Below, one piece after another: positions 29,391 through 56,371 of a stretch of 64,000 nucleotides of DNA (its first letter is position 1; each line of letters starts with the position of its first letter). The notes under the pieces were generated by a model. It had not been told where the DNA came from, made no database searches, and saw only the letters and a program-made list of their open reading frames with translations. Source of the stretch: Niabella aurantiaca DSM 17617 (GTDB lineage Bacteria > Bacteroidota > Bacteroidia > Chitinophagales > Chitinophagaceae); the NCBI RefSeq assembly GCF_000374125.1, contig NZ_KB893625.1, positions 778,945 to 842,944 of the forward strand, written 5' to 3'. A program made the position numbers and the translations under genes.

Positions 29391-29446
29391 AGATCTCAAT
29401 TCTGACAACAGACCGCTAAAGGTAGTTTGTGTAAAAGAGTGACTGG
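29391..29446. repeat. Heptad-register direct duplication, copy 1
   Basis: Eight consecutive 7-base units (AGATCTC, AATTCTG, ACAACAG, ACCGCTA and so on) that realign, with no gap, with a second copy 536 bases away (29927-29982). ACC(G/A)CTA AAGGTAG TTTG is nearly identical in both. Confidence 0.65.
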
Positions 29447-29562
29447 AGAGCCCGTTTACAGAAGGCTGATCGCGATATGTGTTGAAGATTGTAACCGGTT
29501 GAAACCTGATTCCCGGATCTGATAAAGAAGTATTTCCGAATTTCGCAATTTCAGATTCAACA

Positions 29563-29630
29563 CTAAGAAGCTGTTTAAAAAGGATCCGGGAGCATCCTTA
29601 TCATCACAAAAGGTACCGGCTTTTTATCGC
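29563..29630. repeat. Lone end of an inverted-repeat element
   Basis: Starts with CTAAGAAGCTGTTTAAAAA, identical to the right terminal repeat (reverse complement) of the 276-bp element at 32852-33127. It continues with a GATCCGGGAGCATCCTTATC block that closely matches the left part of that element. No matching right end is found nearby, so it looks like a truncated copy or a solo end. Confidence 0.6.
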
Positions 29631-29693
29631 CTCTCTTGTGGTTTCGCTGTAGCCGCCGTCTGTAACAAAACGAGGTTCAGCGATCATTTTATA

Positions 29694-29742
29694 GTGTCAA
29701 AAAAAGTGTATCAACATTATAATGATACAAACGGACTGACAC
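29694..29742. repeat. Nested symmetric dyad
   Basis: The order is GTGTCA, 7 bases, TGTATCA, 9 bases, TGATACA, 7 bases, TGACAC. Inner and outer arms are each perfect inverted repeats with equal 7-base spacing. Further TGACACA copies follow at 29783 and 29798 and another TGTATCA at 29861. The function is unknown. It may be a multi-site operator or the subterminal binding sites of a transposase. Confidence 0.6.
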
Positions 29743-29852
29743 ATTCTCATTAGTGGCAACCGAAACGGTATCTACTAAAAAATGACACACGCCGGCTTGA
29801 CACAAAAATAAAATGACCAATCATTATATCCGTATCTACACCGGGCAATAAA

Positions 29853-29875
29853 AAAGAGGCTGTATCAACCTCTTT
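29853..29875. terminator. Hairpin in the dehydratase-icd spacer
   Basis: AAAGAGG, a 9-base loop containing TGTATCA, then CCTCTTT. It could serve as a weak terminator, or it may be part of the repeat element just upstream. Confidence 0.35.
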
Positions 29876-29905
29876 AATGGCCTGCAGCGTTGTTCTTAAG
29901 AGCTA

Positions 29906-30033
29906 AATGCTGAAATCTCAAATCTCGATTCTCAAATCCGGTAGCTGACCACTAAAGGTAGTTTGGGTGACCGCGTGACCGGGGAAAACTTATTCCCGGA
30001 TCCTCCTGAAAACTGAAGACCGATAGCTGACTA
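29906..30033. repeat. Heptad repeat array beside the icd stop
   Basis: Units of 7 bases run in register from 29906 (AATGCTG, AAATCTC, AAATCTC, GATTCTC, AAATCCG, GTAGCTG, ACCACTA, AAGGTAG). The second copy of the 56-base duplication lies inside. After a short break CTGAAAA, CTGAAGA, CCGATAG, CTGACTA run from 30006 up to the icd stop codon. Confidence 0.7.
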
Positions 30034-31485
30034 CTACTGGCCCTGTGCCTGACTGTATGCTTTTTTGCCGTCCCATTCATTGAGCAGCTCCAGCGAACAG
30101 ATCTTAAAATCGCCGCTAAGGCTCACGTACAGCCCGATCACATCCTGTTGCGTCAGCGGATGCTCATCAATGCTTTCAAAACGTACATTGTACTGGTTTA
30201 CCAGGTTGGTATATACGGACCCTGTTGGCCATACCTGAGTACCGCGGTTGCTTACGTTCACGATCTTGAACTTTACGCCTGCATGGCGCTGGCATTTTTT
30301 TGCGATCACCTCCGGGAGTTCGGAACTTTCGATAAACAGGTCGACCCCTGCGATCTTTTCCTGGCTGGTTTCTTGTGATTCCAGCATTACATTCTTATCC
30401 AGGTGCAATACGGTGCAGGAGCTGGCCACGTCTGCCAGCTCGGGCTTGGCATTCTGTTGCGGTTTCTTGCCCAGGTTGGCGATAATGGCGCCGGCGAATT
30501 CCGGGGTGTTTACTGCCGGGATGGATTTGTTTCCGAAATCGCCGGTATGCACTCCCTGTTCCAGGGTATAGAGCAGGGCGTTCTCGATCTGTGCTGCTTT
30601 TTCCAGTAAACCCAGGTGGCGCAGCATGGCAATACCGCTCAGCAACAGGGCGGTAGGGTTGGCAATATTTTTACCGGCAATATCCGGTGCAGTGCCATGC
30701 ACGGCTTCAAAAATGCAGATGTGGTCACCAATGTTGGCAGAGGGGGCAAACCCCAGTCCGCCCACCAGCCCGGCGCAAAGATCGGAAACAATGTCGCCCT
30801 GCAGGTTGGTGAGCACCACCACATCAAAATTATTGGGCTGAACCACCAGCTTCATGCACAGGTCGTCCACGATCACATCGTCGGCCTTCAGCTCCGGGTA
30901 TTCCTTTGCAACTTCGTAAAAGCATTCCAGGAAAAGCCCGTCAGTGATCTTCATGATATTGGCCTTATGACCACAGGTGATCCTGCGGGCATTCTTCTGA
31001 CGTGCCATTTCGAAGGCATAACGGATCACCTGCAGGCTGCCCGGCCGGGTAATAAAACGCCGGCTCAGCGCCACATCATGCGTCAGCATGTGCTCAATGC
31101 CGCCGTAAGTATCCTCGATATTTTCACGAACGATGGTAATGTCAATAGGGATACCGGCTTTACTGAATACCGTATCCACACCGTGCAGGGTCTGGAACAC
31201 CCGTTTATTGGCATAGGTATTCCAGGTCTTGCGGGCCGTAACATTAATGCTTTTTACGCCTTTGCCTTTTGGTGTTTCCATGGGCCCTTTGAATAGGATA
31301 CCCAGTTCTTCAATGGTCCTTTTTGCTTCTTCGGTCATCCCGTTGTTAAACCCTTTGTCAAATACCCATTTTCCCATCTCTACATACTCATATTCGAGGG
31401 GGACCTCAGCGGCTTTAAAAACAGTGATCACCGAGTCCATAATTTCCGGACCGATCCCGTCGCCTTTAGCTACAGCAATTTTCAT
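30034..31485 (-). CDS. icd: NADP-dependent isocitrate dehydrogenase
   Basis: This 483-residue beta-decarboxylating dehydrogenase converts isocitrate to 2-oxoglutarate in the TCA cycle. Motifs include G-D-G-I-G-P-E, the substrate phosphate loop near S-I-N-V-T-A-R-K-T-W-N, the invariant K/D region G-H-K-A-N-I-M-K and N-L-Q-G-D-I-V-S-D, and the cofactor segment H-G-T-A-P-D-I-A-G-K-N. The C-terminal 130 residues are an extra domain seen in the longer Thermus/Rickettsia-type enzymes. The ATG at 31485 starts the family N terminus M-K-I-A-V-A-K-G-D-G. A promoter about 140 bases upstream predicts a long leader. Confidence 0.95.
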   Translation of the reverse strand: MKIAVAKGDGIGPEIMDSVITVFKAAEVPLEYEYVEMGKWVFDKGFNNGMTEEAKRTIEELGILFKGPMETPKGKGVKSINVTARKTWNTYANKRVFQTLHGVDTVFSKAGIPIDITIVRENIEDTYGGIEHMLTHDVALSRRFITRPGSLQVIRYAFEMARQKNARRITCGHKANIMKITDGLFLECFYEVAKEYPELKADDVIVDDLCMKLVVQPNNFDVVVLTNLQGDIVSDLCAGLVGGLGFAPSANIGDHICIFEAVHGTAPDIAGKNIANPTALLLSGIAMLRHLGLLEKAAQIENALLYTLEQGVHTGDFGNKSIPAVNTPEFAGAIIANLGKKPQQNAKPELADVASSCTVLHLDKNVMLESQETSQEKIAGVDLFIESSELPEVIAKKCQRHAGVKFKIVNVSNRGTQVWPTGSVYTNLVNQYNVRFESIDEHPLTQQDVIGLYVSLSGDFKICSLELLNEWDGKKAYSQAQGQ

Positions 31486-31628
31486 GAACAGACTTAATTT
31501 ACGTTTTAACGATTTTTTGCGAATTGAACTGAGTGCTATTGTTAAAGAACATTGGGTTTCAGACCCTAATAATTTACTACCTAAAAAAATTAAAAAGGTT
31601 GGCCCATTTAACAAGCTCAATAGTGGTG

Positions 31629-31659
31629 CAAAGGTAAGAGAATCTGCCGCCATAATAAA
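31629..31659 (-). promoter_or_regulatory. Predicted promoter of icd
   Basis: On the minus strand TTTA (31656-31659), 19 bases, then TACCTTTG (31629-31636). The -7 box is perfect and the -33 box has one mismatch. The predicted leader to the ATG at 31485 is about 140 bases. Confidence 0.55.
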
Positions 31660-31704
31660 TGCGAAGACCATTAAAAAATGCTATATTTACCAAAACTCCC
31701 ATAA

Positions 31705-32091
31705 ATGAGCAGTTTGATTTCAGCCGGTATCCATGTAAATGTTGAAGTATTCTTTCAGCCGGAATACAGCAATGCGTTACAGTCTGAATTTATGTTTGCT
31801 TATCGCATCACGTTGGAGAACTACAATCCTTTTTCTGTTAAATTACTGCGGCGCAGCTGGTATATTTTCGACAGCAACGGCAGTTACCGCCAGGTGGAAG
31901 GGGAAGGGGTCGTAGGCGTACAACCGGTATTGGCTCCGGGGGAAAGCTACCAGTATATGAGTGGCTGCAACCTGCGTTCCGAAATGGGAAAAATGAAGGG
32001 CAGCTACGAAATGGAGAACCAAAACAGCCACCAGCTTTTTTCTGTAGAGATCCCCGAATTTGAAATGGTTGCCCCGTCAAAATTCAATTGA
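31705..32091 (+). CDS. apaG: ApaG domain protein
   Basis: This 128-residue single-domain protein of the ApaG family has an immunoglobulin-like beta sandwich of about 125 residues. The conserved core shows F-A-Y-R-I-T-L-E-N, the L-L-R-R-S-W-Y-I-F segment, the V-V-G-V-Q-P-V-L-A-P-G-E-S-Y-Q-Y-M-S-G-C motif and a C-terminal G-S-Y-E-M. The E. coli protein is linked to metal efflux phenotypes and ApaH, and the domain is often a binding module. No enzyme activity is established. The gene diverges from icd and is followed by the 2H phosphoesterase gene after a spacer with its own promoter box. Confidence 0.92.
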   Translation: MSSLISAGIHVNVEVFFQPEYSNALQSEFMFAYRITLENYNPFSVKLLRRSWYIFDSNGSYRQVEGEGVVGVQPVLAPGESYQYMSGCNLRSEMGKMKGSYEMENQNSHQLFSVEIPEFEMVAPSKFN

Positions 32092-32154
32092 CCCTGTCCC
32101 GGATTTTTTTTAAATAAAAAGCTAAAAATATTAGTATTTATAAACTAATTTTTT

Positions 32155-32162
32155 TAGCTTTG
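32155..32162 (+). promoter_or_regulatory. -7 box upstream of the 2H phosphoesterase gene
   Basis: TAGCTTTG matches TAnnTTTG. It places transcription just before the ATG at 32178 and argues against the in-frame ATG-like start further upstream. The -33 region (TTAG) is weak. Confidence 0.5.
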
Positions 32163-32177
32163 TGTAAAACTGTTTTT

Positions 32178-32786
32178 ATGCAAGTTATAGAATCCGTAAA
32201 AGCGGTGGCCGTTGCTGAATACCTATTGCTGATCACACCTCATGAAGATCTTTTCAACCGCATCCGGATGGAAAAGCAGGTTTTTTTTGAAAAGTACAAA
32301 GCTCCCGAGGCGATCCGCGGAAAACCCCACCTTACGCTGGTCCGGTTTACACAATTTGAGGGCGCGGAGGAGCGGATCCGTCAGAAACTCAGGAAGAGGG
32401 CAGCTGAGTGGCTGCCCTTCTGCGTGGAACTCGCCGGCTTTGGGAGCTTTCCTTCGCATACTATTTATCTCAACGTGACTACGCGGTCGGGCATTCAAAA
32501 CCTGGTGAAAAGCATCCGGGCCGACAGTCAGGCGCTGATGAAGCTCGACAAAGACAACAAGCCGCATTTTATCCTGGAGCCGCATATTACCATTGCGCGG
32601 CGACTGAAGCCCTGGCAGTATGAAGCCGGATGGCTCGAATACCGGAATAAAAGTTTCAGCGGAAAGTTTATGGCCAATGCAATGACCCTGTTGAAAAGAA
32701 CAGATGAAACGACGCCGTATAAAACAGTGGAACGTTTTGAATTTGCCGGCCGGCCTTTGCTGCCAAAGCAGGGGGTGATGTTTTAG
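32178..32786 (+). CDS. 2H phosphoesterase / 2'-5' RNA ligase-like protein
   Basis: The protein of 202 residues carries the two H-x-T/I-hydrophobic motifs of the 2H phosphoesterase superfamily, H-L-T-L in the first half and H-I-T-I in the second. It also has the typical alternation of a small R-x-T-Q-F segment and a bilobal beta core. Such enzymes hydrolyse or form 2'-5' or 2',3'-cyclic phosphates in RNA or nucleotides in the cytoplasm. The precise substrate is unknown. The start was chosen because the promoter box ends only 16 bases upstream. It is followed immediately by a heptad array and an inverted-repeat element. Confidence 0.85.
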   Translation: MQVIESVKAVAVAEYLLLITPHEDLFNRIRMEKQVFFEKYKAPEAIRGKPHLTLVRFTQFEGAEERIRQKLRKRAAEWLPFCVELAGFGSFPSHTIYLNVTTRSGIQNLVKSIRADSQALMKLDKDNKPHFILEPHITIARRLKPWQYEAGWLEYRNKSFSGKFMANAMTLLKRTDETTPYKTVERFEFAGRPLLPKQGVMF

Positions 32787-32793
32787 GGGATTT

Positions 32794-32849
32794 GGGAATG
32801 GTGAAATGCGAAGGGTGAGAATGGGGTGAATGGGTAATAGTCAATAGCG
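32794..32849. repeat. Heptad repeat array after the 2H phosphoesterase gene
   Basis: Eight 7-base units (GGGAATG, GTGAAAT, GCGAAGG, GTGAGAA, TGGGGTG, AATGGGT, AATAGTC, AATAGCG) begin seven bases after the stop codon and stop two bases before the inverted-repeat element. Confidence 0.65.
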
Positions 32850-32851
32850 CT

Positions 32852-33127
32852 CTCAGGAGCGGTTTAAAAACGATCCGGGAGCATCCTTATCGTTACAAAA
32901 AGCTGCCGTTTTTTTATCGCATGGCCTCGAAAGATCCGGCGAGAACGGGTTTCAATCTGTTTATAAGTCCAAAAGAAGAACGGAGAGCCAGGGGCCGGGG
33001 GCATGATGAGCCGTGCACATGGCATTTATGAAATTACGGCTTCCTTAAAGCCGGCTTTAAGGACAACAAAGCGCCGGATAGCGCTTATAAAGAGAACCAG
33101 GGTTCTATTTTTTAAACAGCTTCTTAG
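32852..33127. mobile_element. MITE-like 276-bp element with terminal inverted repeats
   Basis: The left 19-base end (32852-32870) and right end (33109-33127, reverse complement CTAAGAAGCTGTTTAAAAA) match with only a few differences. The interior encodes no plausible protein but holds a perfect 20-base palindrome (33043-33062, arms CCTTAAAGCC/GGCTTTAAGG), an AGCGC/GCGCT dyad (33070-33085) and an AGAACC-AG-GGTTCT hairpin followed by a T run (33093-33113). A related end is at 29563. This is the pattern of a non-autonomous transposable element or structured repeat. No target-site duplication was found and no transposase family can be assigned. Confidence 0.55.
33093..33113 (+). terminator. Terminator-like hairpin inside the inverted-repeat element
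   Basis: AGAACC-AG-GGTTCT followed by A and six T. It could end transcripts entering from the left. Confidence 0.45.
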
Positions 33128-33158
33128 GCAAAAAACGAAATCTAACCGGAACCTGGTT

Positions 33159-33247
33159 GGAATTTGGAAATGTGAAGATTTGAAAATGGGCACCAGGTCC
33201 GGAACCGGTGTGACTTCAAACTTTAAACATTAAACCGGGAACAAAAA
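33159..33247. repeat. Heptad repeats before the radical SAM gene
   Basis: Two blocks of 7-base units: GGAATTT, GGAAATG, TGAAGAT, TTGAAAA (33159-33186), and ACTTCAA, ACTTTAA, ACATTAA, ACCGGGA, ACAAAAA (33213-33247). The second block ends eight bases before the ATG at 33256. Confidence 0.55.
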
Positions 33248-33255
33248 AAGCTACC

Positions 33256-34365
33256 ATGGAAAAGAAATTACAACAGGACCATTTTAAAGTGGCCGTATCA
33301 AAAAAGGAAGAAGCACAGCAATACCTGCAGGGCAGGGGCGCGCAGATAAATACACCCAACCGGTTTCTTAAAAATGAAACAATAAAAGAACACATAGAGG
33401 CGATCGACGATTGGGAAGAGGACAACACAGGCACCCGTTACCTGGAGCAGGAAGCAAAAACGATCGTGAATAAAGTAGACAGTCCGGATGTGGGGATGGG
33501 CTACAGCATGAACGCGTACGCGGGTTGTGAGCACGGCTGTATCTATTGTTATGCCCGCAATGTGCATGAATACTGGGGATACAGCGCCGGTCTTGATTTT
33601 GAACGGAAGATCATAGTAAAAAAGAATGCTCCCCAGCTGCTGCGTAAACAGCTGATGCATCCGAAGTGGGAGCCGGTGCCCATCATGCTGAGTGGCAATA
33701 CCGATTGCTACCAGCCGGCAGAAAAGAAATACCGGCTCACCCGGGGCCTGCTGGAAGTATGCAATGAGTTTAACCAGCCCGTGGGGATCCTTACAAAGAA
33801 TGCGGGCATCCTGAGGGATAAAGATGTGTTGCAGGAAATGGCGAAGAAGAACATTGTAAGGGCAATGGTGTCCATTACCTCTTTTAATGAGGACCTGCGC
33901 AGGGTGATGGAGCCCCGCACCACAACGGCGTTGCAGCGGCTAAAGGTGATTGAAGAACTGAGCAGTGCCGGTGTCACCATGGGTGTAATGATGGGGCCAA
34001 TGATCCCCGGCCTGAATGAGCACGAGATGCAACGCATCATGAAAGCAGCTTCTGAGCGGGGCGCTACCTTTACGGCTTACACTTTTATCCGGTTGAATGG
34101 CGCGATCAAAGTTTTATTTCACGACTGGTTGTATAAGAACTTCCCGGACCGGGCAGATAAGATCTGGCACCTGATCGAGCAGAGCCACAACGGCAAGGTG
34201 AACGACTCCCGCTGGGGTCTGCGCATGCGCGGCGAGGGAAATATTGCGCAGCTGGTGGCGCAGCAATACGCCCGGTATGGAAAACTGTACCGGATGAACG
34301 AAGGCGAAACCGGCCTCGACCGCAGTGCTTTCCGGCGCCCGGGGCAGCAGGGGACCTTGTTTTGA
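33256..34365 (+). CDS. PA0069-family radical SAM protein
   Basis: This 369-residue radical SAM enzyme has the cluster motif C91-x3-C95-x2-C98 inside Y-A-G-C-E-H-G-C-I-Y-C-Y-A-R-N, which binds the [4Fe-4S] cluster that cleaves S-adenosylmethionine. The family, sometimes called SplB-like, has no established substrate. The barrel continues with S-G-N-T-D-C-Y-Q-P and L-T-K-N-A. The long N-terminal region (residues 1-75) is typical for PA0069 proteins. The gene stands alone. Its short leader is made of heptad repeats. Confidence 0.9.
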   Translation: MEKKLQQDHFKVAVSKKEEAQQYLQGRGAQINTPNRFLKNETIKEHIEAIDDWEEDNTGTRYLEQEAKTIVNKVDSPDVGMGYSMNAYAGCEHGCIYCYARNVHEYWGYSAGLDFERKIIVKKNAPQLLRKQLMHPKWEPVPIMLSGNTDCYQPAEKKYRLTRGLLEVCNEFNQPVGILTKNAGILRDKDVLQEMAKKNIVRAMVSITSFNEDLRRVMEPRTTTALQRLKVIEELSSAGVTMGVMMGPMIPGLNEHEMQRIMKAASERGATFTAYTFIRLNGAIKVLFHDWLYKNFPDRADKIWHLIEQSHNGKVNDSRWGLRMRGEGNIAQLVAQQYARYGKLYRMNEGETGLDRSAFRRPGQQGTLF

Positions 34366-34758
34366 CTGGCCTTGCTGCCAACCTGCCCCGGGGGTAGCGG
34401 TCCGTAACTGCGGCTGAGCGCTGCAGGCCCGGACTATGAATGAACGGCTGTAATGAAAACTGGACCACTTATGACCCGGATAAAGCAGTTGCCGGGGTGA
34501 TCTTGGAATAGCGGACCCTGTTTATGATCCGCTATTTGTCACTGACAAGGGCAGACCGCCGGTCACTAAGGCCGGACCGGGCAACATTACTCAAATATTA
34601 AGAACTGCTTATAGTTTTCCACATTTTACGGGATAGGTGGAAAATATTTTTTATAGCCCAACGGACAGATTTTATAATTTACCGGGAAATTTCCTGTTGA
34701 ACGGATTTTATGTGTGCACGATGGTGTGGTGTTTTAAAATAAGTAAAACCAGATTCAT
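34366..34758. other. Spacer without a supported gene, one hairpin
   Basis: About 390 bases with no credible reading frame. A perfect inverted repeat (AATAGCGGA / TCCGCTATT, 34507-34536) could be a terminator for the radical SAM gene, although it lies 140 bases after the stop. The right half is AT-rich and presumably holds the promoter of the next gene, but no consensus box is convincing. Confidence 0.4.
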
Positions 34759-35247
34759 ATGCAGAATAAAACAAAACAATGGAGAAAACTGACCGGTGAA
34801 AAAGTGACCGTCTATATTGAAGACGAGCTGCGTGGCGTGATCCAGCGTGAGCGCCGGATGGGCAGCCAGCTAAAGGTATGCATTGGTACCGACAGCCAGG
34901 TAAAGGGTGCAGATACGGAGTTCGCTACAGCCATTGTATTCATCCGTAAGGGGCGCGGGGGCTTTATGTACCTGAATAACGAAACAACACGGGAGAAAAT
35001 GAGCATCCGCCAGCGGATGATGACAGAAGTGGCGCGGAGCATTGAAGTGGCCTATGCCCTGAGCGGTGTTTTTAATACCCATGAAGTGGATATGGAAGTG
35101 CATGTAGACATCAATACCGATCCGATGTATAAAAGTCACGACGCGCTGAAGGAAGCCATTGGTTATATTACCGGGATGGGCTTTGCATTTAAAGCAAAAC
35201 CCGAGGCCTTTGCCAGCTCCTGCTGTGCCAATAAGGTGGTGCAGTAG
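34759..35247 (+). CDS. YkuK-like RNase H-fold protein (DUF458)
   Basis: This 162-residue protein belongs to the YkuK/DUF458 family, which is predicted to have an RNase H-like fold. Acidic residues that could coordinate metal occur in I-G-T-D-S-Q-V-K (about residues 42-49), the E in M-M-T-E-V-A-R-S and D-I-N-T-D (about 115-119). The C terminus has G-M-G-F-A-F-K-A-K-P-E-A, a strong family signature. The biological role is unknown and nuclease activity is only a fold-based guess. No signal peptide is present. Confidence 0.85.
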   Translation: MQNKTKQWRKLTGEKVTVYIEDELRGVIQRERRMGSQLKVCIGTDSQVKGADTEFATAIVFIRKGRGGFMYLNNETTREKMSIRQRMMTEVARSIEVAYALSGVFNTHEVDMEVHVDINTDPMYKSHDALKEAIGYITGMGFAFKAKPEAFASSCCANKVVQ

Positions 35248-35437
35248 GACGTTGTTTAAGATTTGACGGTTAATGTTTAACAGAAGCCTGCTGGTAGGCA
35301 TGATGTAGGCTCTATATTTTCTATTTTCACCAGTTAACGGGGCCGGGAATGGGATATCCGGTATCCAAAGCCAGTATCAACCGCTCCTGACACGGTTCCG
35401 ATCACTTCTACCGGGGATTGAATAGAAAAACCGGAAC

Positions 35438-36481: not shown

Positions 36482-36584
36482 ACCGGATATTTCAATGAAT
36501 GCATATAGCAGCACGGCAATATAAGGAATCTTTTTAATGGAAGGCACCGCGGTGGTCGATAGAGAATGTTAAAGTATATTTGGC

Positions 36585-36615
36585 TTTATTCTTTGTTATC
36601 ATAGGATTACATTTG
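36585..36615 (+). promoter_or_regulatory. Predicted promoter of nadE
   Basis: TTTA (36585-36588), 19 bases, then TACATTTG (36608-36615). The -7 box is perfect and the -33 box has one mismatch. The ATG is 20 bases further on. Confidence 0.55.
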
Positions 36616-36635
36616 TAAATATTAAAGGGTACTCC

Positions 36636-38336: not shown

Positions 38337-38475
38337 CGTGCCATTCACGACCCGGGGTTCATGGATCCGGCACCGGGAGCAGCGGAGGCGGGCAATGCGC
38401 AGACGCATTCCGGCAAGTTATTTGCAGAAAGGAGGTGGGGCGGGGAATAGCGAGTGGTGCTGGTGAAAGGATGGC

Positions 38476-38524
38476 AGATCCCAGATCAAAGATCACAAAT
38501 CTCAAATCACAAATCTCAAAAATA
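38476..38524. repeat. Heptad repeat leader of moxR
   Basis: Seven 7-base units (AGATCCC, AGATCAA, AGATCAC, AAATCTC, AAATCAC, AAATCTC, AAAAATA) in strict register run to within three bases of the moxR ATG. No Shine-Dalgarno site is present. Confidence 0.7.
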
Positions 38525-39529: not shown

Positions 39530-39532
39530 GAG

Positions 39533-39658
39533 GTGAATGGTCAATGGTGAACGGGGGAGAAGCGAATAGGGTGATTGCTGAAGACTGATAACGGAAAGCT
39601 GAAGACAAATACGGATCGTTCAAGTCTCGAATCTCAAGTCTCAAATCTCAAATCTCAA
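39533..39658. repeat. Eighteen-unit heptad array between moxR and the DUF58 gene
   Basis: The whole spacer reads as 7-base units in one register: GTGAATG, GTCAATG, GTGAACG, then AGCGAAT, AGGGTGA, TTGCTGA, AGACTGA, AAGCTGA, and finally GTCTCAA and repeated ATCTCAA. Three unit types seen separately in other spacers occur here fused in one array. Confidence 0.8.
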
Positions 39659-39666
39659 AAGAATCA

Positions 39667-45932: not shown

Positions 45933-45940
45933 CAAATATA
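45933..45940 (-). promoter_or_regulatory. -7 box of the cytochrome gene
   Basis: TATATTTG on the minus strand matches TAnnTTTG and ends only seven bases before the ATG at 45926, predicting a leaderless or near-leaderless message. An upstream ATG inside the box cannot be the start. No clear -33 box is seen. Confidence 0.45.
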
Positions 45941-45942
45941 GG

Positions 45943-45998
45943 TATCAGTTTTCAGCTTTCAGCTATCAGTTTTCAGCAATCGCCTATCAGTTGTTAGC
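45943..45998. repeat. Heptad repeat array between endonuclease V and cytochrome genes
   Basis: Eight 7-base units in register: TATCAGT, TTTCAGC, TTTCAGC, TATCAGT, TTTCAGC, AATCGCC, TATCAGT, TGTTAGC. The complement of TTTCAGC (GCTGAAA) is the same unit type as AAGCTGA/TTGCTGA in the moxR spacer, in opposite orientation. Confidence 0.75.
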
Positions 45999-46019
45999 AG
46001 CCGAGCGGACTGTTGATAG

Positions 46020-48623: not shown

Positions 48624-48835
48624 TTTTTAATTTTTATACATCAAAGTTGTTTAAACTCCCCAGAATTCCGGTATGCCATATGACCATTTGCATTTTCTGC
48701 GGAGATTCCGGTATCAATAGTGAAGATTGCCATTCCACACCTGACAGGCCCTGAAGCAAGTCCGGGACCGTATTTGTGTTACACAGCAATACTTTTTCAA
48801 AAACGGACAGCCTCAGCAGCAAAAATAGAACAACA

Positions 48836-49945: not shown

Positions 49946-49956
49946 GTTATGATGGT

Positions 49957-51045
49957 TTAAAAGGAAAACGCAAGTGAGCTTGTGATGGCAAAGTTATGAT
50001 CCTGGTTTGGAAAGATGCGGCTGCGGCTGTGAAAGCCCCTGCCTTCGATCCGCCACATAAACTGGCCGGTGATCCTGTGGTCGATGTTAAGCGAATAGCC
50101 CAGGGTTTTAAATCCATGTCCCGCGTCTACAGGAATGAGCGCTCCGTGAGGGTCCGAAAAATATTCGCCCCGCAGTCCTATATTCCATTGGTCGTTGAAC
50201 CAGGCAGCGATCAACACGGGGGCGTACCAGGTATTGTAGTCCTTGCTTTTGGGAGCTTTCTGTTCCGTGCCGATATCAAATCCGAGTGTCAGGGAAATAT
50301 GCGGCGATATCAGGAACTGACCATACAGATCGTGGAAATACCGCATCCGGCGGATGCTGTCCGGCTGATCATTGCCAATGAAGGAGCTGCTGTTGAGCGT
50401 GATCTTGTCTGTGGGTTTGAACACCAGCTGGTGGCCCCATGCGGGGGTATTGTTCCCGTTCACCCGCTCGATGCGTTGCCAGCCGTTCAGGATCAGACCG
50501 CTGATGTACCATTTGCCGTTATCCGGGGTATAGGAGATGCGGGCCCCTGTTTCAAAATAAGGCGAGTTTTCTGCAGCCATGCTTCGGGTTAAAGTCTGAC
50601 AATCCCTGCCAATAGCGCTTTCCCAGCCGATATGAGAGGGAAGAATGCCCGCATCGATCCAGAGGTTGCGGGCCTTTGAAAGTTTAAAGCCGGCATTGGC
50701 CTCATAGATGTTTTTTAAAGCACCTTTTTCGGCCGCCATATTATCGTTGCTGTAGGTGCCGGTCATTAAACCGATATTCCCTCTTACGCGGCCGGCGGTA
50801 TAGCTGGCTTTAATGAGGGCAAGGTTTACCTGAACCGTATTATGCCGGTTGTAACTGTACAGGAACGATCGTTTCATATGGTTTGCCGGCCTTCCGAAAT
50901 CATAACTGTAAAATACCTCGCCGTAACCGCTGATCTTTAAAGGCGGCACGGGGTTTTCTGTTTGAGCAATGGCCTTTTCCAGGGATATGAATGGGGCGAC
51001 CAGTACCAGCCAGGCGATGTTGTTCCGGATTGTTCTGCTGTTCAT
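49957..51045 (-). CDS. Outer-membrane beta-barrel porin of the kdp operon
   Basis: This 362-residue protein has a signal peptide (cleavage near K-A-I-A-Q) and alternating short beta strands through the chain, finishing with an aromatic C terminus (S-L-A-F-S-F) for BAM recognition. Blocks such as G-Y-G-E-V-F-Y-S-Y-D and the many tight turns fit the putative beta-barrel porin-2 (OmpL-like) family. Placement between kdpC and the KdpD half, 11 bases before the latter, suggests it opens a K+ path across the outer membrane when external K+ is scarce. Ion specificity is an inference. Confidence 0.82.
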   Translation of the reverse strand: MNSRTIRNNIAWLVLVAPFISLEKAIAQTENPVPPLKISGYGEVFYSYDFGRPANHMKRSFLYSYNRHNTVQVNLALIKASYTAGRVRGNIGLMTGTYSNDNMAAEKGALKNIYEANAGFKLSKARNLWIDAGILPSHIGWESAIGRDCQTLTRSMAAENSPYFETGARISYTPDNGKWYISGLILNGWQRIERVNGNNTPAWGHQLVFKPTDKITLNSSSFIGNDQPDSIRRMRYFHDLYGQFLISPHISLTLGFDIGTEQKAPKSKDYNTWYAPVLIAAWFNDQWNIGLRGEYFSDPHGALIPVDAGHGFKTLGYSLNIDHRITGQFMWRIEGRGFHSRSRIFPNQDHNFAITSSLAFSF

Positions 51046-51062
51046 GCGTTTTTGTTTTCCGA

Positions 51063-51090
51063 GTGAGAAGTTTGGAGTGGGATGTTTGCG
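51063..51090. repeat. Heptad repeats between kdpC and porin
   Basis: GTGAGAA, GTTTGGA, GTGGGAT, GTTTGCG, four units of the GTGAGA/GTTnnnA type in the 102-base gap. Confidence 0.6.
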
Positions 51091-51147
51091 GATCTCCGCG
51101 CGGCTTCCGGTTAAAGGGAGGCGGGGTGGTCATGGGATTGTTAAGGT

Positions 51148-51696
51148 TCAATGGGTCAATTGATCCAGGTCGATATTTAACTTTAGTACGTTTATTTTCT
51201 GGGGTCCCAGCAGTGGCCGGCTGGTATGCCGATGTACCAGCTCCTGAACGGCCTGTTGTGATAGTTTGCGGACTGCTGCGATACGGGGCACCTGGGCATT
51301 TGCAGCGGCAACGGAAATGTCGGGGTCCAGTCCGCTGCCGCTCGCCGTTACGATATCAGCAGGTATGATGGCGCCGGGGTTCTTTTGTTTAAAGTCCGTT
51401 ACCCGTTGCTGTACCTCTTTCAGGTAATCCGGGTTATCCGGTCCTTTATTGCTGCCACCGCTTCCGGCGGCGTTGTAGGCTACTGCGGATGGCCGTGAGT
51501 TGAAGTAAATAACGCTGTCGAAACGCTGCCCGATATGGGCATAGTAGCTTTTGCCATTGCGGTCGGCAACCTTTTCTCCCTTCCCTTTTTCCGGTGTGCA
51601 TCGGGCAAAGCCGGATAGCAGGAGTGGGTAAATGATCACGCAGAGGACCATCAGTGCAACGGTCAGGCGTATCGCGGGAATGATCTGTTGTTTCAT
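51148..51696 (-). CDS. kdpC: Potassium-transporting ATPase subunit C
   Basis: The 182-residue protein has one N-terminal membrane helix (about 10-30) and a periplasmic domain containing R-F-D-S-V-I-Y-F-N-S-R-P-S-A, the D-I-V-T-A-S-G-S-G-L-D-P-D-I-S segment and the V-R-K-L end region that define KdpC. It stabilises the KdpFABC complex and raises its ATP and K+ affinity. It follows kdpB after 107 bases that contain ten heptad repeats. The three last codons stay in frame to a normal stop. Confidence 0.95.
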   Translation of the reverse strand: MKQQIIPAIRLTVALMVLCVIIYPLLLSGFARCTPEKGKGEKVADRNGKSYYAHIGQRFDSVIYFNSRPSAVAYNAAGSGGSNKGPDNPDYLKEVQQRVTDFKQKNPGAIIPADIVTASGSGLDPDISVAAANAQVPRIAAVRKLSQQAVQELVHRHTSRPLLGPQKINVLKLNIDLDQLTH

Positions 51697-51722
51697 TGTT
51701 GTGTTTTTGGGGTGAGATGAGA

Positions 51723-51792
51723 GTAAGATGTTGGGAGTGAGATGTTTTTAGTGAGAAGTTTACAGTGATAAGTTTATAATGAGATGTTGATT
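51723..51792. repeat. Heptad repeat array between kdpB and kdpC
   Basis: Ten 7-base units alternate GTT-type and GTGAGA-type: GTAAGAT, GTTGGGA, GTGAGAT, GTTTTTA, GTGAGAA, GTTTACA, GTGATAA, GTTTATA, ATGAGAT, GTTGATT. The effective period is 14 bases. Confidence 0.8.
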
Positions 51793-51803
51793 GAAGGTCG
51801 TTT

Positions 51804-53885
51804 TTAAAAAAGCAGACCTGTCAGCATATCGATGACTTTGATGCCGATAAAGGGCGCGATGATGCCTCCGAGTCCATAGATCAACAGGTTCCTTCGCAGC
51901 AGGGCGCTGGCGCCGATGGGTTTGTAGGCAACCCCTTTCAGGGCTAGGGGGATCAGTAGCGGGATGATGAGGGCATTAAAGAGCACGGCTGAAAGAATCG
52001 CACTTTCCGGACTGTGCAGCTGCATAATGTTCAGCCCCTGTAAGGAGGGGATGGCGGTAATGAACAAAGCGGGGATGATGGCAAAATATTTAGCCACGTC
52101 ATTGGCGATGCTGAACGTGGTGAGTGTGCCACGGGTCATCAGCAATTGTTTCCCGATCTCCACCACCTCGATCAGTTTGGTGGGGTCATTGTCGAGATCT
52201 ACCATATTTCCGGCTTCTTTTGCGGCTTGTGTTCCGCTGTTCATGGCCACACCAACATCGGCCTGCGCCAGGGCAGGAGCATCGTTGGTGCCGTCGCCCA
52301 TCATGGCCACCAGGCGGCCTTCTGACTGCTCCCTGCGGATATAGTTCATTTTGTCTTCAGGCCTGGCTTCTGCAATGAAATCATCCACACCGGCTTTTTC
52401 GGCGATGAATTTTGCAGTAAGCGGATTGTCGCCCGTCACCATTACCGTTTTGATCCCCATCCGGCGCAACCGTTCAAAGCGTTCCTGTATGCCGGGTTTA
52501 ATGATGTCCTGTAATTCGATGACCCCCAGCGCAGCATTGTCCTTTGCCACCACCAGGGGTGTTCCGCCATTGCCGGCGATGGCTTTTGTTTTGATCAGGA
52601 TCTCCCCCGGAACCGTATTGCCGGCTCTTTGAACCAGTTTGGTAATGGCATCCATTGCGCCTTTGCGGATATGAATGCCGTTGACGTTCACACCGGAGCA
52701 TCTGGTTTCTGCGGAGAAGGGGACCGGTTTATAGCTGCTGTGCCCGGCAAGGAACTGTTGCCGGGTATGCGGGATATAATTTTTGTCTTTAAGCAAACCG
52801 GAGGCCAGCTCCACGATGGACTTTCCTTCGGGGGTTTCATCGGTGAGGGAGCCGAGTATGGCGGCTTCCATAAAGTCCTGATCACTGGTGCCGTTGGCGG
52901 GCCAGAAATGAGTGGCCCTGCGGTTCCCAATGGTGATGGTCCCTGTTTTATCCAGCAGCAGTACATCAATATCGCCGGCAGTTTCAACAGCCTTGCCGCT
53001 TTTGGTGATCACATTTGCCCTCAATGCCCGGTCCATACCTGCAATGCCGATCGCAGAAAGCAGGCCACCGATCGTAGTGGGGATCAGGCACACAAAGAGT
53101 GCGATCAGGGCGGCGATGGTAATGGGCGTATGTGCAAAATCAGCAAATGGTTTTAATGTCGTACACACGATAATGAATACCAGTGAGAACCCGGCCAGCA
53201 GGATGGTGAGCGCAATCTCATTGGGCGTTTTCTGGCGGGAGGCACCTTCCACCAGGGCGATCATTTTGTCGAGGAAACTTTCACCGGGCCTGGTGGTAAC
53301 TTTTACCTTTATTTTATCGGACAATACTTTGGTGCCTCCTGTTACGGAGCTTTTATCCCCGCCTGCCTCCCGGATCACCGGCGCGCTTTCGCCGGTGATA
53401 GCGCTTTCGTCGATCGTGGCGAGTCCTTCAATGATCTCCCCGTCGGTGGGAATGATATCGCCCGGTTCACAAACGAAAATATCATGGAGCTGCAGGGTGG
53501 AAGAGGGGACGATGCGAATCTCATTCAATGTCATTTCCCCAACGGGTTCTATTTTCTTAGCCGGGGTTGTTTCCCGGGTTTTCCGCAGACTGTTGGTCTG
53601 TGCCTTGCCGCGCGCTTCTGCAATGGCTTCCGCAAAGTTGGCAAAGAGCAAGGTGATAAAAAGAATAGCGGTGATGGTGATGTTGTAGGTGAGAGATCCC
53701 TGTCCTGCACGGTTACCGGCGATCCCGGTCCAGATGCAGACACCCAGCATCACCAGGGTGCCGGTCCACACCAGGAACATAACAGGATTGCGGAACATTT
53801 TTGACGGACTGAGTTTTACAAAAGATTCTTTCAGCGCTTCGATGAATTGATCCTTTTGAAACAGTGAAGTATGTTGCGTTTTCAT
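51804..53885 (-). CDS. kdpB: Potassium-transporting P-type ATPase subunit B
   Basis: The 693-residue catalytic subunit of the KdpFABC K+ pump. P-type hallmarks are the T-G-E-S dephosphorylation loop, the phosphorylation site D-K-T-G-T-I-T, the nucleotide-domain K-G-A-M-D and the hinge [10 protein letters not shown]. Six to seven membrane helices are predicted. It hydrolyses ATP to drive K+ taken through KdpA. It is separated from kdpA by about 690 bases that hold heptad arrays and an inserted pseudogene on the other strand, an unusual gap since these genes are normally adjacent. Confidence 0.97.
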
Positions 53886-53906
53886 TGTAAGGGGGATTTA
53901 ATGGGG

Positions 53907-54032
53907 GTGAGAAGTGAGATGTTGGGGGTGAGATGTTGTTAGTGAGATGTTATTGGTGAAATGATTTTAGTGAGATGTTGTTGGCTATTCCTAAAATGTT
54001 ATTAATGAGCGGAAGAATGTTGTTGGTGTGCC
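53907..54032. repeat. Heptad repeat array, kdpB side of the four-helix-bundle pseudogene
   Basis: Eighteen 7-base units in one register starting GTGAGAA, GTGAGAT, GTTGGGG, GTGAGAT, GTTGTTA, GTGAGAT and decaying toward GTTGTTG, GTGTGCC. The 14-base superunit GTTGTTA-GTGAGAT matches the array on the other side of the pseudogene. Confidence 0.85.
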
Positions 54033-54040
54033 GGAACGTA

Positions 54041-54072
54041 TTTGTTTTTTATATTATGATTAATTATATTCG
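54041..54072 (+). promoter_or_regulatory. Promoter-like site of the four-helix-bundle pseudogene
   Basis: TTTG (54041-54044), 20 bases, then TATATTCG (54065-54072). This is the Bacteroidota consensus with one mismatch in the -7 box. The ATG is 17 bases further on. Confidence 0.5.
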
Positions 54073-54089
54073 ATGAAATATTTAAACTT

Positions 54090-54443
54090 ATGAAACCACA
54101 CAAAAAATTAAATGCCTGGGCTGACAGCTTTGAGCTTGTTAAAGAATTGTATGCTGCAACGAATTCTTTTCCTTCCGCGGAGAAATTTGGCCTTGTTTCG
54201 CAGATTCGCAGAGCTGCTGTATCTGTTCCTGTAAACATCGCAGAAGGTGCTGCCTGAAAGAGTCCGAAGCAGTTTGCCTGGTTCCTGTACGTTTCGCTGG
54301 GATCGCTTACAGAACTGGATACGCTTATACTGCTCTGCGGATCCCTGGAATTTATTTCCCGGGAGGAATGTGACCGATTGGTTGAAAAAATGGATCTCAT
54401 TGGTAAGATGATTTATGGATTGATTAAAAGTTTGGAGAAGTGA
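54090..54443 (+). pseudogene. Four-helix-bundle (S23/IVP-type) protein with internal stop
   Basis: Translation from ATG 54090 gives a typical four-helix-bundle protein beginning M-K-P-H-K-K-L-N-A-W, with Q-I-R-R-A-A-V-S-V-P-V-N-I-A-E-G-A-A. There a TGA (54255-54257) replaces what is almost always an Arg codon (CGA to TGA fits one transition). Reading continues in the same frame with K-S-P-K-Q-F-A-W-F-L and S-L-G-S-L-T-E-L-D-T-L to a stop at 54443, 117 codons in all. The family includes proteins from intervening sequences of 23S rRNA and is structurally related to Avd of diversity-generating retroelements. Its cellular role is unknown. It lies opposite to kdp and is flanked by heptad arrays. 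Confidence 0.85.
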
Positions 54444-54447
54444 TGGG

Positions 54448-54517
54448 GTGAAATGTTGTTAGTGAGAAGTTGTTAGTGAGAAGTTGTTAGTGAAAAGTTG
54501 TTAGTGAAAAGTGAGGT
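54448..54517. repeat. Heptad repeat array, kdpA side of the pseudogene
   Basis: Ten 7-base units: GTGAAAT, then four almost perfect copies of the 14-base pair GTTGTTA-GTGA(G/A)AA, then GTGAGGT. It starts four bases after the pseudogene stop. Confidence 0.85.
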
Positions 54518-54563
54518 GAAAGGGAATAATCTGAATGTTCTACATCCTGCTTTTCACTAACAA
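54498..54563. terminator. Inverted repeat at the kdpA 3' end
   Basis: TTGTTAGTGAAAAG (54498-54511) and its perfect complement (54550-54563) can pair around a 38-base loop. The right arm lies 11 bases beyond the kdpA stop, so this could be an attenuator or an RNA-stabilising hairpin within the kdp message. It is created by an inverted copy of the heptad unit. Confidence 0.5.
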
Positions 54564-54574
54564 TATTTCACCGT

Positions 54575-56263
54575 TTATCCCATTCCAAAATACTCTGCAA
54601 TTGGCCCCAGCGTTAAGGCGGGGAAAAAGGAGAGTGCAGCTACAATGATGATCACTGCAAATACCATGAAACCGAAGGTGGCGGTATCTGTTTTTAAAGT
54701 ACCGGCGCTTTCCGGGATGTATTTTTTTGCTCCAAGAATGCCGGCAATAGCCACCGGGCCGATGATGGGCAGGTAACGGGAAAGGATCAGTACAAAACCG
54801 GTGCTGATGTTCCACCAGGGTGTATTGTCTCCCAGTCCTTCGAACCCGCTCCCGTTATTGGCGGCGCTGGAAGTGTATTCGTACAACATTTCCGTAAAGC
54901 CATGAAAACCGGGATTGGCAAGGGTGGAGGCCGTTTGCGAAGGCAGGGCCGCTGCCAGCGCGGTTCCGGTCAGTATCAGCAACGGATGCAACAATGCGAC
55001 GATCATGGCGATCTTCATTTCGCGGGCTTCTATTTTTTTACCCAGGAACTCGGGTGTGCGTCCCACCATCAGCCCGCTTATAAAAACTGCAAGGATAATG
55101 AAGACGAAATAGTTCAGGATGCCTACACCGCAACCGCCGTAAAAACAGTTGGTCATCATGGCCAGTAGCATATTCATTCCGCTCAGCGGCATATAACTGG
55201 AATGCATGGAGTTGATGGAGCCCGTGGAGATCACCGTGGTCGCAATGCTCCAGTAAGCGGAAGCGGGGGCGCCAAAGCGTACTTCTTTTCCCTCCATTGC
55301 TCCCAGTGCAGGACTGACACCCATTGCGGTGATATTCGGGTTGCCGTTCATTTCCATAATGATATTAGGGATGCACAGCGCCAGGAAGCCGAGGGTCATC
55401 ACGCACCAGATGGCCCATCCCAGTTTTCTCCGGTTGAGGAACTGTCCAAAAGCAAAGACCATTGCAAACGGGATCAGCATTTGTGCAATCATCTGCGTCA
55501 TGTTGGTGAGGTAGTTCACGTTTTCGAGCGGGTGGGATGAGTTGGCCCCGAAGAAGCCACCGCCATTGGTGCCCAGGTGCTTGATCGGCACGAATGCGGC
55601 TACCGGACCGGTAGATACATAAGTGGTATCGCCCTGCAGGGTGATCATTTGCTGTTTCCCTTCAAAGGTCATCGGGGTATGATTCAGGATCAGGATCATA
55701 CCGATAATGATGGAGAGGGGCAACAGGATCCGGGTAATGGATCTGACAAAAGCAGTATAAAAATTACCCAGGGTTTGCTGCGTGCCCTTCCGGAAGGCAT
55801 GGAACACCGCGGCAGCAGCAGCCATACCTGTGGCAGCCGTTACGAACTGCAAAAACATCAGATAGAGCTGGCTGAAGTAGCTGACGCCCGTTTCTCCGGA
55901 ATAATGCTGGAGGTTACAATTCACCAGGAAAGATATGGTGGTATTAAAGGCCTGGTCCGGCGTCTGGTCCGGGTTGTGATCGGGATTGAGCGGCAACCAT
56001 GATTGGTTCAGCAGGATAAACATCCCCAGAAAAAACCAGATAAAATTGATGACCAGCAAGGCCGTCAGCTGTTGCTTCCAGTTTTGCTCTTTATGAGGAT
56101 CAATGCCGCTGCACTTAAAAAGGAAGCGCTCAATGGGATTGAATACCGGATCTGAAAATGTGCGTTCGTTGGCGTACACCCGGGCAATATACCGGCCCAG
56201 CGGCAGTGACAGCAACAGGGTAAAAACAAACATGATGATAATGCCTGATATTTCTGTGTTCAT
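54575..56263 (-). CDS. kdpA: Potassium-transporting ATPase subunit A
   Basis: The 562-residue channel-like subunit binds and conducts K+ in the KdpFABC complex. It has ten predicted helices and four pore-loop motifs, of which T-N-G-G-G-F-F-G-A-N-S-S-H-P-L-E-N is the clearest. The open frame runs on upstream to 56425, but those codons are only heptad repeats (giving a repetitive H-F-T-L-H-F-S peptide). The ATG at 56263 gives the family start M-N-T-E-I. kdpF precedes it by 128 bases. Confidence 0.96.
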   Translation of the reverse strand: MNTEISGIIIMFVFTLLLSLPLGRYIARVYANERTFSDPVFNPIERFLFKCSGIDPHKEQNWKQQLTALLVINFIWFFLGMFILLNQSWLPLNPDHNPDQTPDQAFNTTISFLVNCNLQHYSGETGVSYFSQLYLMFLQFVTAATGMAAAAAVFHAFRKGTQQTLGNFYTAFVRSITRILLPLSIIIGMILILNHTPMTFEGKQQMITLQGDTTYVSTGPVAAFVPIKHLGTNGGGFFGANSSHPLENVNYLTNMTQMIAQMLIPFAMVFAFGQFLNRRKLGWAIWCVMTLGFLALCIPNIIMEMNGNPNITAMGVSPALGAMEGKEVRFGAPASAYWSIATTVISTGSINSMHSSYMPLSGMNMLLAMMTNCFYGGCGVGILNYFVFIILAVFISGLMVGRTPEFLGKKIEAREMKIAMIVALLHPLLILTGTALAAALPSQTASTLANPGFHGFTEMLYEYTSSAANNGSGFEGLGDNTPWWNISTGFVLILSRYLPIIGPVAIAGILGAKKYIPESAGTLKTDTATFGFMVFAVIIIVAALSFFPALTLGPIAEYFGMG

Positions 56264-56280
56264 TGTTTTCGAAGTTGTGG

Positions 56281-56371
56281 GTGAGAAGTGGAGAGTGAAA
56301 TGTGAGAAGTGGAGAGTGAAATGTGAAATGTTGGAAGTGAAATGTGAAATGTGAAGCGTGGAAGGTGAATG
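56281..56371. repeat. Heptad repeat array between kdpF and kdpA
   Basis: Thirteen 7-base units in register: GTGAGAA, GTGGAGA, GTGAAAT twice in a row as a 21-base superunit, then GTGAAAT, GTTGGAA, GTGAAAT, GTGAAAT, GTGAAGC, GTGGAAG, GTGAATG. Confidence 0.85.

Follow-up and report, generated by a model that had tools for sequence, protein, structure and literature searches.

Heptamer arrays in intergenic spacers of Niabella aurantiaca are probably terminal arms of small elements carrying a 23S rRNA intervening sequence protein gene

A 64,000-nucleotide (nt) stretch of the Niabella aurantiaca DSM 17617 genome (contig NZ_KB893625.1, positions 778,945 to 842,944; hereafter the window) carries tandem arrays of seven-base units in many of its intergenic spacers. 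These arrays are probably the terminal arms, many of them orphaned, of small intergenic elements of the intervening sequence (IVS) type, which encode a 23S rRNA intervening sequence protein (IVP, or S23; PF05635). A complete element would occupy the gap between two genes, usually co-directional ones, and would consist of a purine-rich heptad array running from the stop codon of the first, an IVP gene of ~110-150 codons, and an inverse-complementary array just before the start codon of the second. What was observed is this arrangement, together with a strand polarity of the arrays and arms that are complementary within a locus; in addition, array density rises with IVP copy number, and arm units are co-inherited with the IVP clade at sites that are unrelated. 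The IVP, a relative of Avd, would recognize the heptads and take part in the spread of the element; insertion may be tolerated because the paired arms would close the gap in the mRNA, as for IVSs in 23S rRNA (PMC4990558), and arrays without an IVP gene would be derivatives lacking the open reading frame (ORF), with copies that drift by slippage.

The period was measured by lag-k scoring of the 42 spacers of the window (8,230 nt in total), with 50 dinucleotide shuffles as control. High-scoring segments numbered 5, 7, 4, and 4 at lags 7, 14, 21, and 28, where the shuffles predict 0.00-0.04, and over the remaining lags from 2 to 30 a single segment was found, at lag 27. Tandem Repeats Finder reported arrays of period 7, 14, 21, or 28 at ten places (29913-29938, 33213-33235, 38478-38520, 39620-39659, 45943-45999, 51061-51088, 51736-51788, 53913-53984, 54448-54512, and 56281-56376), and three extra rows of period 14 or 21 (45415, 46825, and 47385), two of them intragenic. 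In 864 kb of the genome (positions 1-400000 of contigs C1 and C2 plus the window; 525 spacers, one run of Ns left out), the scan gave 21, 19, 11, and 5 segments at lags 7, 14, 21, and 28, seven each at lags 8 and 16, and at most four elsewhere; the corresponding shuffles, in which the N run was counted once per lag, averaged 1.0-1.6 segments per lag (2.0 at lag 2). Set against the shuffles, these counts show that the heptad signal is neither due to chance nor restricted to the window. An amount of coding DNA equal to the 864-kb spacers held no lag-7 segment.

An earlier note, made from the letters of the window alone, had described such heptads, and as a whole its observation is confirmed by both methods: the lag-7 signal is stronger than in composition-matched shuffles, arrays are present elsewhere in the genome, and they avoid coding regions. 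Its figure of at least ten heptad spacers agrees with the ten places given by Tandem Repeats Finder (the three extra rows lie outside the places it had named), but one of its spacers (32794-32849) is too degenerate for either method, and in another (29391-30033) only ~42 nt (29897-29938) pass, the remainder holding no clean array. That the period is always seven is incorrect, given the segments at lags 8 and 16 and some 8-periodic arms in other genera. Strand polarity and the inverted pairing of many arrays had been missed.

IVP genes are common in these bacteria. Each of the 17 Niabella genomes searched has PF05635 matches, and in a sample of 198 genomes from Bacteroidota, 153 carry an IVP gene; the N. 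aurantiaca genome has 16 matches, of which 12 are above the cut-off, one of those only with its in-frame neighbors. Flanks of 250 nt were analyzed at 16 own-genome, 28 genus, and 30 phylum loci, the last being the best matches by E-value and no random draw. With N runs excluded, they contained 12, 35, and 27 lag-7 segments, respectively, versus 0.4, 0.4, and 1.2 in shuffles. The left flank of a locus complemented its own right flank better than it did those of other loci (p = 5e-5, 2e-10, and 4e-11 for 16 own, 27 genus, and 30 phylum loci), a comparison in which the N run (one locus, one own stretch) is still counted. A further 40 phylum loci were drawn from the match list blind to their flanks, and 39 were used after L303, at a contig end, was dropped. 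They yielded 40, 33, and 17 segments at lags 7, 14, and 21, 16, 12, and 10 at lags 8, 16, and 24, and at most five at others (shuffles, 0.4-1.3 at lags 7, 8, 14, 16, and 21); the period is thus seven in most elements and eight in a minority. Units of eight bases (CTAAGATT and CTGAGGTT type) were seen in a minority of other-genus IVP elements, e.g., L204, L210, and L224. Own-flank complementarity at the 39 loci exceeded cross-locus values (p = 1.7e-18), lying above the 95th percentile of the locus's own cross scores in 22. Over 113 Bacteroidota IVP loci, a lag-7/14 array was present on at least one side in 73 and on both in 43 (N run left out), and in ten IVP-rich genomes such arrays occupied 38/78 IVP flanks versus 23/189 ordinary spacer windows (Fisher 5.8e-10; N run counted).

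Orientation was counted at 128 of 129 IVP loci, one without long flanking frames being omitted. The great majority (113/128) lie between co-directional genes, against an own-genome baseline of 306/444, and the IVP gene is oriented as its neighbors in 97 of the 113. At co-directional loci with a measurable array, the median array length is 33 nt. The median distance from the upstream stop to the beginning of the left array is 1 nt (n = 76; quartiles, -3 and 78.5), and that from the end of the right array to the first in-frame ATG at or beyond this point is 11 nt (n = 81; quartiles, 5 and 63), in keeping with the earlier remark that arrays abut start and stop codons. When the arms are read inward from either end, the dinucleotide with the strongest periodicity is AG, with a mean occupancy per unit of 0.72 and 0.67, compared to 0.34 in shuffled left arms. 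Polarity was scored in spacers regardless of IVP genes, using the own genome, five Niabella relatives, and eleven other-genus samples chosen for having arrays. After 31 of 91 arrays were dropped for a weak AG/CT difference or distance from a gene end, those near stops were 27 AG versus 2 CT in the sense strand and those near starts 4 AG versus 27 CT (Fisher 1e-10), the Niabella spacers being partly orthologous. Self-complementary spacer ends were found in 10/208 co-directional gaps (1.8 expected), 0/45 divergent gaps (0.7), and 1/32 convergent gaps (0.3).

Such positions would also suit translation-coupling or leader elements, where a terminating ribosome opens the base of a stem and frees the next start; the hairpins would then be selected, and IVP genes would make use of them. 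The distances of the arms from stop and start, the excess of self-complementary ends in co-directional gaps, and the stems at atpD-atpC described below are all in favor of this explanation, but many arrays are single-armed, with neither partner nor fold, close species differ in the units that a given gap contains, and none occurs in the stretches read of genomes with 0-2 IVPs; on balance we think it unlikely. The mRNA leader elements suggested in the earlier note would fit the right-hand arms and are possible. Two narrower candidates were rejected: a stop-codon insulator, since, although many units hold TGA, TAA, or TAG and a period of seven closes all frames, GGGAACA-like units have none; and leader G-depletion alone, which accounts for right-hand arms but for neither the left-hand arms nor the IVP link.

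Array density was surveyed in 51 samples of at most 40 kb, consisting of 31 kdp regions (of 80 fetched) and 20 genomes chosen for 0 or at least 6 IVPs. No spacer arrays were detected in 14 genomes with 0 IVPs (41.6 kb) or in 11 with 1-2 (24.8 kb), versus 9 arrays in nine genomes with 3-5 IVPs (20.6 kb), 18 in nine with 6-9 (31.4 kb), and 17 in eight with at least 10 (25.0 kb); pooled, the figures are 0 in 25 genomes with 0-2 IVPs (66 kb of spacers) and 44 in 26 genomes with at least 3 (77 kb). Array count and IVP copy number are correlated over the 51 samples (Spearman 0.60, p = 3e-6; control lags, -0.22), although the correlation ignores phylogeny and G+C and the IVP-free sample is more G+C-rich, a caution to be set beside those collected below. 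Five IVP-free genomes of 37-47% G+C had no lag-7 arrays.

This distribution bears on one alternative, namely that polymerase slippage in non-coding gaps, with 7 nt as a favored length, produced the arrays and that IVP genes are incidental to them. Heptanucleotide repeats are over-represented among the simple repeats of many bacteria with no accepted cause (PMC4692102, PMC4679880), and a preference for 7 nt in slippage would follow from the polymerase contacts proposed by Mrazek 2007 (cited in both of these papers). Slippage would account for copy number and unit sequence varying between species at one spacer, for adjacent units that drift into one another in register, and for the avoidance of coding DNA. 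It does not predict the polarity at stops and starts, complementarity to the own flank beyond that to other loci, the absence of arrays from the stretches read of the 25 genomes with 0-2 IVPs, or the common units of related IVPs at unrelated sites, and we consider it very improbable. Slippage-generated spacer DNA, as proposed in the earlier note, may nevertheless explain changes in array length, though not polarity, flank complementarity, or the link to IVP genes.

Arm and IVP sequences were compared over 75 of 114 loci; those omitted had no array or an IVP match that contained stops or fell short of 95 residues. Each pair was scored by its best-matching combination of arms, and variants restricted to like arms pointed the same way. 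For the 33 pairs of similar IVPs (normalized score at least 0.6, no common flanking gene), arm similarity was 0.455 versus 0.303 when permuted (0/5000 permutations), and for the 28 such pairs from different genera it was 0.426 (6/5000). The overall correlation between IVP and arms is weak (r = 0.16, 7/5000; between genera 0.18, 0/5000). AGGCTTT-type arms are found at unrelated sites in Niabella (L178) and in another genus (L279 and L289), and AGCTATC-type arms at the unrelated sites L282, L284, and L287. In addition, 19 of 21 arrays of the own-genome sample match a Niabella IVP-locus arm better than do 20 self-shuffles, with the proviso that shuffling also destroys the period.

The atpD-atpC gap was compared in 16 of the 17 Niabella genomes (G003 omitted). 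In five (G000, G014, G006, G002, and G004), the gap contains an intact or residual IVP gene with flanks of TAGTATT type. Nine of the 11 gaps without an IVP gene fold better than shuffles (z -2.1 to -6.4) and two do not; these gaps use mostly other heptads (TTTGAAA, AATGTGA, and others), and thus different versions exist at one junction among species of one genus. IVP-less hairpins at orthologous junctions are what would be expected if the arrays were pre-existing host hairpins or spacers and IVP elements inserted into their loops, like IVSs replacing 23S rRNA tetraloops; the published 23S rRNA IVS insertion sites are indeed helix loops (PMC4990558). Against such a target stand the tracking of IVP clade by unit type across genera at unrelated sites and the different units of most IVP-less atpD-atpC gaps. 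Because of both, the arms seem to travel with the gene, and we regard pre-existing targets as improbable.

One case points to lateral acquisition. The 470-nt element upstream of uvrB is 97.0% identical between G000 and G014, whereas uvrB (900 nt) is 87.6% and the upstream gene 77.3% identical; the high-identity block extends from ~30-50 nt inside the upstream gene to ~28 nt inside uvrB. Judged by these identities, the element was apparently acquired recently in at least one lineage. A phage vector is not supported, as one-query searches confirmed no IVP relative in viral contigs and found none in a phage collection.

IVP genes with such flanks are not confined to Bacteroidota. A tblastn search of plasmids found IVP relatives in 18 records, mostly from Nostoc, Calothrix, and other cyanobacteria, and 15 of the 18 were analyzed; a second search gave 27 records, but the flank statistics cover only the 15 loci of the first. 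These loci have 23, 20, and 12 segments at lags 7, 14, and 21 and 8 at lag 8 (shuffles, 0.2-0.5), with a median self-complementarity of 27 versus 11.5 (p = 2e-5, n = 15) and values of at least 15 in 11 of 15. Clear flanking heptads are seen in Nostoc edaphicum (GGGAGTA, between nrdB and nrdA), Nostoc sp. C052 (GGGAACA), Anabaena sp. 90 (GGTGACA, between cas6 and cas4), and Azospirillum (AGGACGG-like units). On these plasmids, heptads resembling the short tandem repeats (STRR) of cyanobacteria therefore do occur in an IVP-flanking arrangement, and the likeness to STRR heptamers pointed out in the earlier note is upheld.

Some IVP genes lie within operons of clustered regularly interspaced short palindromic repeat (CRISPR) systems, in Anabaena sp. 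90 (L312), Pseudanabaena galeata (L314), and Picosynechococcus PCC 7003 (L321), the arrangement being cas6-IVP-cas4 twice and cas10-IVP-cmr3 once. A "23S rRNA IVP" is listed among proteins associated with CRISPR adaptation modules (PMC10910872). The arrangements suggest that IVP-CRISPR associations can be insertions at operon junctions, rather than cas genes.

The window itself contains a degraded IVP gene in the kdpB-kdpA gap, antisense to the kdp operon (54090..54443, plus strand; PF05635 profile match G000:C1:833046-833363, E 4.8e-32), with one in-frame stop. It is flanked directly 5' of kdpB by an array of CT type in the mRNA sense (53907..53984, minus strand; Tandem Repeats Finder and sequence) and on the opposite side by a GTGAAAAGTTGTTA 14-mer array (54448..54512, minus strand; Tandem Repeats Finder score 109). 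An inverted arm beside the kdpA stop codon (54549..54573, minus strand; CGGTGAAATATTGTTAGTGAAAAGC in the mRNA sense, from the sequence) is complementary to units of both arrays and forms the short inverted partner of the kdp element, the whole of which (53886-54574) folds at z -4.1. Niabella drilacis is a close relative, its KdpA being 95% identical, and its kdpB-kdpA gap has an open 117-codon frame (PF05635, E 7e-33) with arrays on both sides. At the same site, G005 has an IVP match without stops and G015 a partial one, and in G010 and G006 there are inverted arrays with no IVP gene. In Dyadobacter flavalbus, a further IVP copy lies directly 3' of kdpA, also between inverted heptad arrays.

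The kdpF-A, A-B, and B-C gaps hold arrays in both the window and N. drilacis, of like units but in another order and length. In the window, the kdpF/kdpA gap has a single-arm array, CACATTTCACTTCTCAC-like in the mRNA sense and without a fold (56281..56371, minus strand), and 5' of kdpC there is an almost G-free array, AAACTTCTCACTAAAAACATCTCAC-like in the mRNA sense and likewise without a fold (51736..51788, minus strand), which is also found in N. drilacis with a different unit order; both were detected by Tandem Repeats Finder. A short GAGTGAGAAGTTTG copy (two 14-mers; 51061..51088, minus strand; Tandem Repeats Finder) is located just 5' of the gene after kdpC. A kdp-specific regulatory motif was considered because TCTCACTAANAAC occurs six times in the genome, four of them in kdp gaps, but remains of IVP elements explain this better. 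No other lead came from the family assignments of ten proteins encoded near the moxR and kdp spacers. The gap between kdpD and a histidine-kinase gene (window 48624-48835) is 212 nt long, versus 35-37 nt in all five relatives.

Collinearity with the window extends to five related genomes, whose main blocks are 76-84% identical. Their orthologous spacers often have arrays at the corresponding position, in which unit types follow a similar order while copy numbers differ; G015 deviates most. The gap between the isocitrate-dehydrogenase-type and ilvD-type genes, both on the minus strand, contains GATTTGAGATTTGAG-like heptads of AG/TGA type (29897..29938, minus strand; lag-7 score 15, Tandem Repeats Finder). 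Degenerate GGTGAAN/GTGAGAA heptads of AG type in sense lie directly 3' of the LigT-family stop (32787..32849, plus strand; a weak array, seen by eye), and ACTTTAA heptads of CT type in sense 20 nt 5' of the radical-SAM gene start (33213..33235, plus strand; Tandem Repeats Finder and lag scan), where orthologous spacers hold AACCTTAAACCTTGAAC-type heptads. In the same LigT-radical SAM gap (orthologue of window 32787-33255), a ~200-nt stretch is present as two near-identical copies in G010 and one in G015 and is absent from G005 and G006; G014 could not be anchored. The stretch looks like another intergenic element.

A ATCACAAATCTCAA array of CT type (38470..38520, plus strand; Tandem Repeats Finder and lag scan) ends 7 nt before the ATG (38528) of a moxR-type AAA ATPase gene, and the spacer 3' of that gene holds a composite array (39530..39659, plus strand; sequence and lag scan), whose units are GTGAATG behind the stop, AGCTGAA in the center, and ATCTCAA up to 7 nt from the next start. 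The earlier note was right that several unit types are combined here; G010, G005, and G006 have a similar order of types in differing copy numbers. Units pass in register from AGCTGAA to ATCTCAA, which may reflect slippage and drift once the gene was lost. The gap between the endonuclease V and TPR-protein genes contains a TTTCAGC/TATCAGY array (45940..45999, minus strand; Tandem Repeats Finder and lag scan), which folds weakly in the window (z -1.6), whereas folding is strong in the orthologous spacers of G005 (z -5.8) and G006 (z -5.0). Since several window arrays are single arms or have arms of unlike unit type and do not fold, functional RNA hairpins are not the rule, and most arrays of the window are best seen as remnants.

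Two further observations concern array-bearing DNA. Contig C1 of G000 starts inside a TTGAGAT heptad array (bases 6-43), and assembly breaks may thus fall on such arrays. A dispersed repeat unrelated to the heptads, CCGGGAGCATCCTTATC, has 17 genome copies at no more than one mismatch (0 in a reversed control), including those at window 29586-29602 and 32875-32891, both in array-bearing spacers.

A number of results weigh against regarding the arrays as arms of IVP elements. At the threshold used, 40 of the 113 IVP loci have no lag-7/14 array, and four of the 15 plasmid loci fall below a self-complementarity of 15; although 17 of the 26 genomes with at least 3 IVPs have at least one array, nine have none in the stretch read. 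Start-side polarity is weak in the eleven other-genus samples (3 versus 5). Several window arrays are single arms without a hairpin, the two kdp leader arrays (51736..51788 and 56281..56371) are entirely unstructured, in the moxR spacers arms of unlike unit type are combined and fold no better than shuffles (z +1.8 for 39530..39659, and +0.8), and 54448-54512 is a direct, not inverted, copy relative to 53907-53984. Raised element identity was seen in one of two IVP-bearing uvrB pairs of nearest relatives; in the second (G016 and G008) the element is 85.5% and the flanks are 91.1% and 87.8% identical, with no excess, nor is there an element excess at kdp, where the IVP gene is 84-91% identical. 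Neither target duplication nor a clean empty site was recognized in orthologous gaps by eye, no systematic search being made. Finally, joint descent of gene and arms would give an equal unit-clade signal, which therefore shows one element and not binding.

The interpretation in the earlier note is partly supported. Among the roles it offered, binding sites for a repeat-recognizing protein come closest, the candidate protein being the IVP (PF05635) predicted from the gene that lies between arrays. A broader proposal, possible rather than probable, is that the heptamers of several phyla (those of Bacteroidota, STRR, and perhaps GGGAATC and TAACTGA) belong to one system of mobile IVP-element arms. 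A clade-specific, pentameric, Avd-like IVP would read AG-containing heptads one per subunit, would thereby, rather than slippage, set the period of seven, and would carry the element between stop and start, where the pairing arms would hide it from translation. Genes for IVP/S23 "four helix bundle" proteins are frequent and so far without an explanation; linking them to the heptads gives both a context and makes both testable. If the arrays are indeed arms of IVP elements, a widespread and unexplained class of bacterial repeats would have a likely source, and the presence of IVP genes in unrelated operons, CRISPR included, would be explained, with a caution against assigning them to those systems.

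The elements and the IVSs of 23S rRNA have in common an S23/IVP family gene between complementary stem-forming termini (PMC4990558); for the Coxiella IVS, a selfish element has been proposed, its origin and mobility being unclear (PMC4990558). Unlike an IVS, the element occupies a gap between protein genes, running from stop to start codon, with a stem built of heptad repeats; in view of this location, between protein-coding frames and not within a 23S rRNA gene, we use the term "IVS-like" and not IVS. Both PF05635 identity and stem-capable complementary termini are found at IVP-bearing loci; most window arrays hold no PF05635 gene, and several have no stem. By hidden Markov model comparison, Avd of diversity-generating retroelements belongs to the IVP superfamily (bAvd, E 2.6e-7 for the N. 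drilacis frame; DivGenRetAVD, E 8e-6; both below curated cut-offs). The resemblance, and the action of Avd in retroelements, are also noted in PMC10053308; nine of ten proteins neighboring the kdp and moxR spacers gave no hint of such a retroelement and the tenth was uninformative, no dedicated search having been made. The solved IVP homologues 2gsc, which is Xanthomonas XCC0516, and 2rld have five chains per entry. Repetitive extragenic palindromic sequences with their associated transposases (REP/RAYT) and miniature inverted-repeat transposable elements (MITEs) are dispersed intergenic inverted-repeat units, some with a gene and many without. The present arms differ from them in being tandem heptads of a sequence that varies by locus, and we know of no transposase for them.

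The GGGAATC and GGGGA(C/T)T repeats of Xanthomonas and Nostoc share with the arrays the heptamer period, a mostly intergenic location, and proximity to ORF ends (PMC4692102). Rehm et al. gave for GGGAATC the same strand rule as found here, with the unit on the coding strand after stops and on the non-coding strand before starts, and inverted heptamer pairs were reported in Xanthomonas that are usually kept between two species (PMC4692102). The repeats are treated there as G-quadruplex repeats, and the terms four helix, S23, intervening, and XCC0516 are all absent from the main text. TAACTGA heptamers of Beggiatoaceae, cyanobacteria, and Bacteroidetes lie directly 5' of start codons, with 147 of 170 sets pointing toward the start, an orientation equal to CT type before starts in present terms; other heptamers occur beside them in Bacteroidetes (PMC4679880). 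That study dealt with one unit and one inverted repeat and named S1, Csp, and Csr as candidate binders, its main text containing neither four helix nor S23 (PMC4679880). The earlier note, which knew of no established functional class in Bacteroidota, did not take account of MacGregor 2015, where TAACTGA arrays are given for five Bacteroidetes (PMC4679880). A search of the open-access literature, with subscription journals and preprints outside its scope, found no paper joining heptamer repeats with IVP genes. Heptamer repeats and IVP genes were thus each already known, and it is the link between them that appears to be new.

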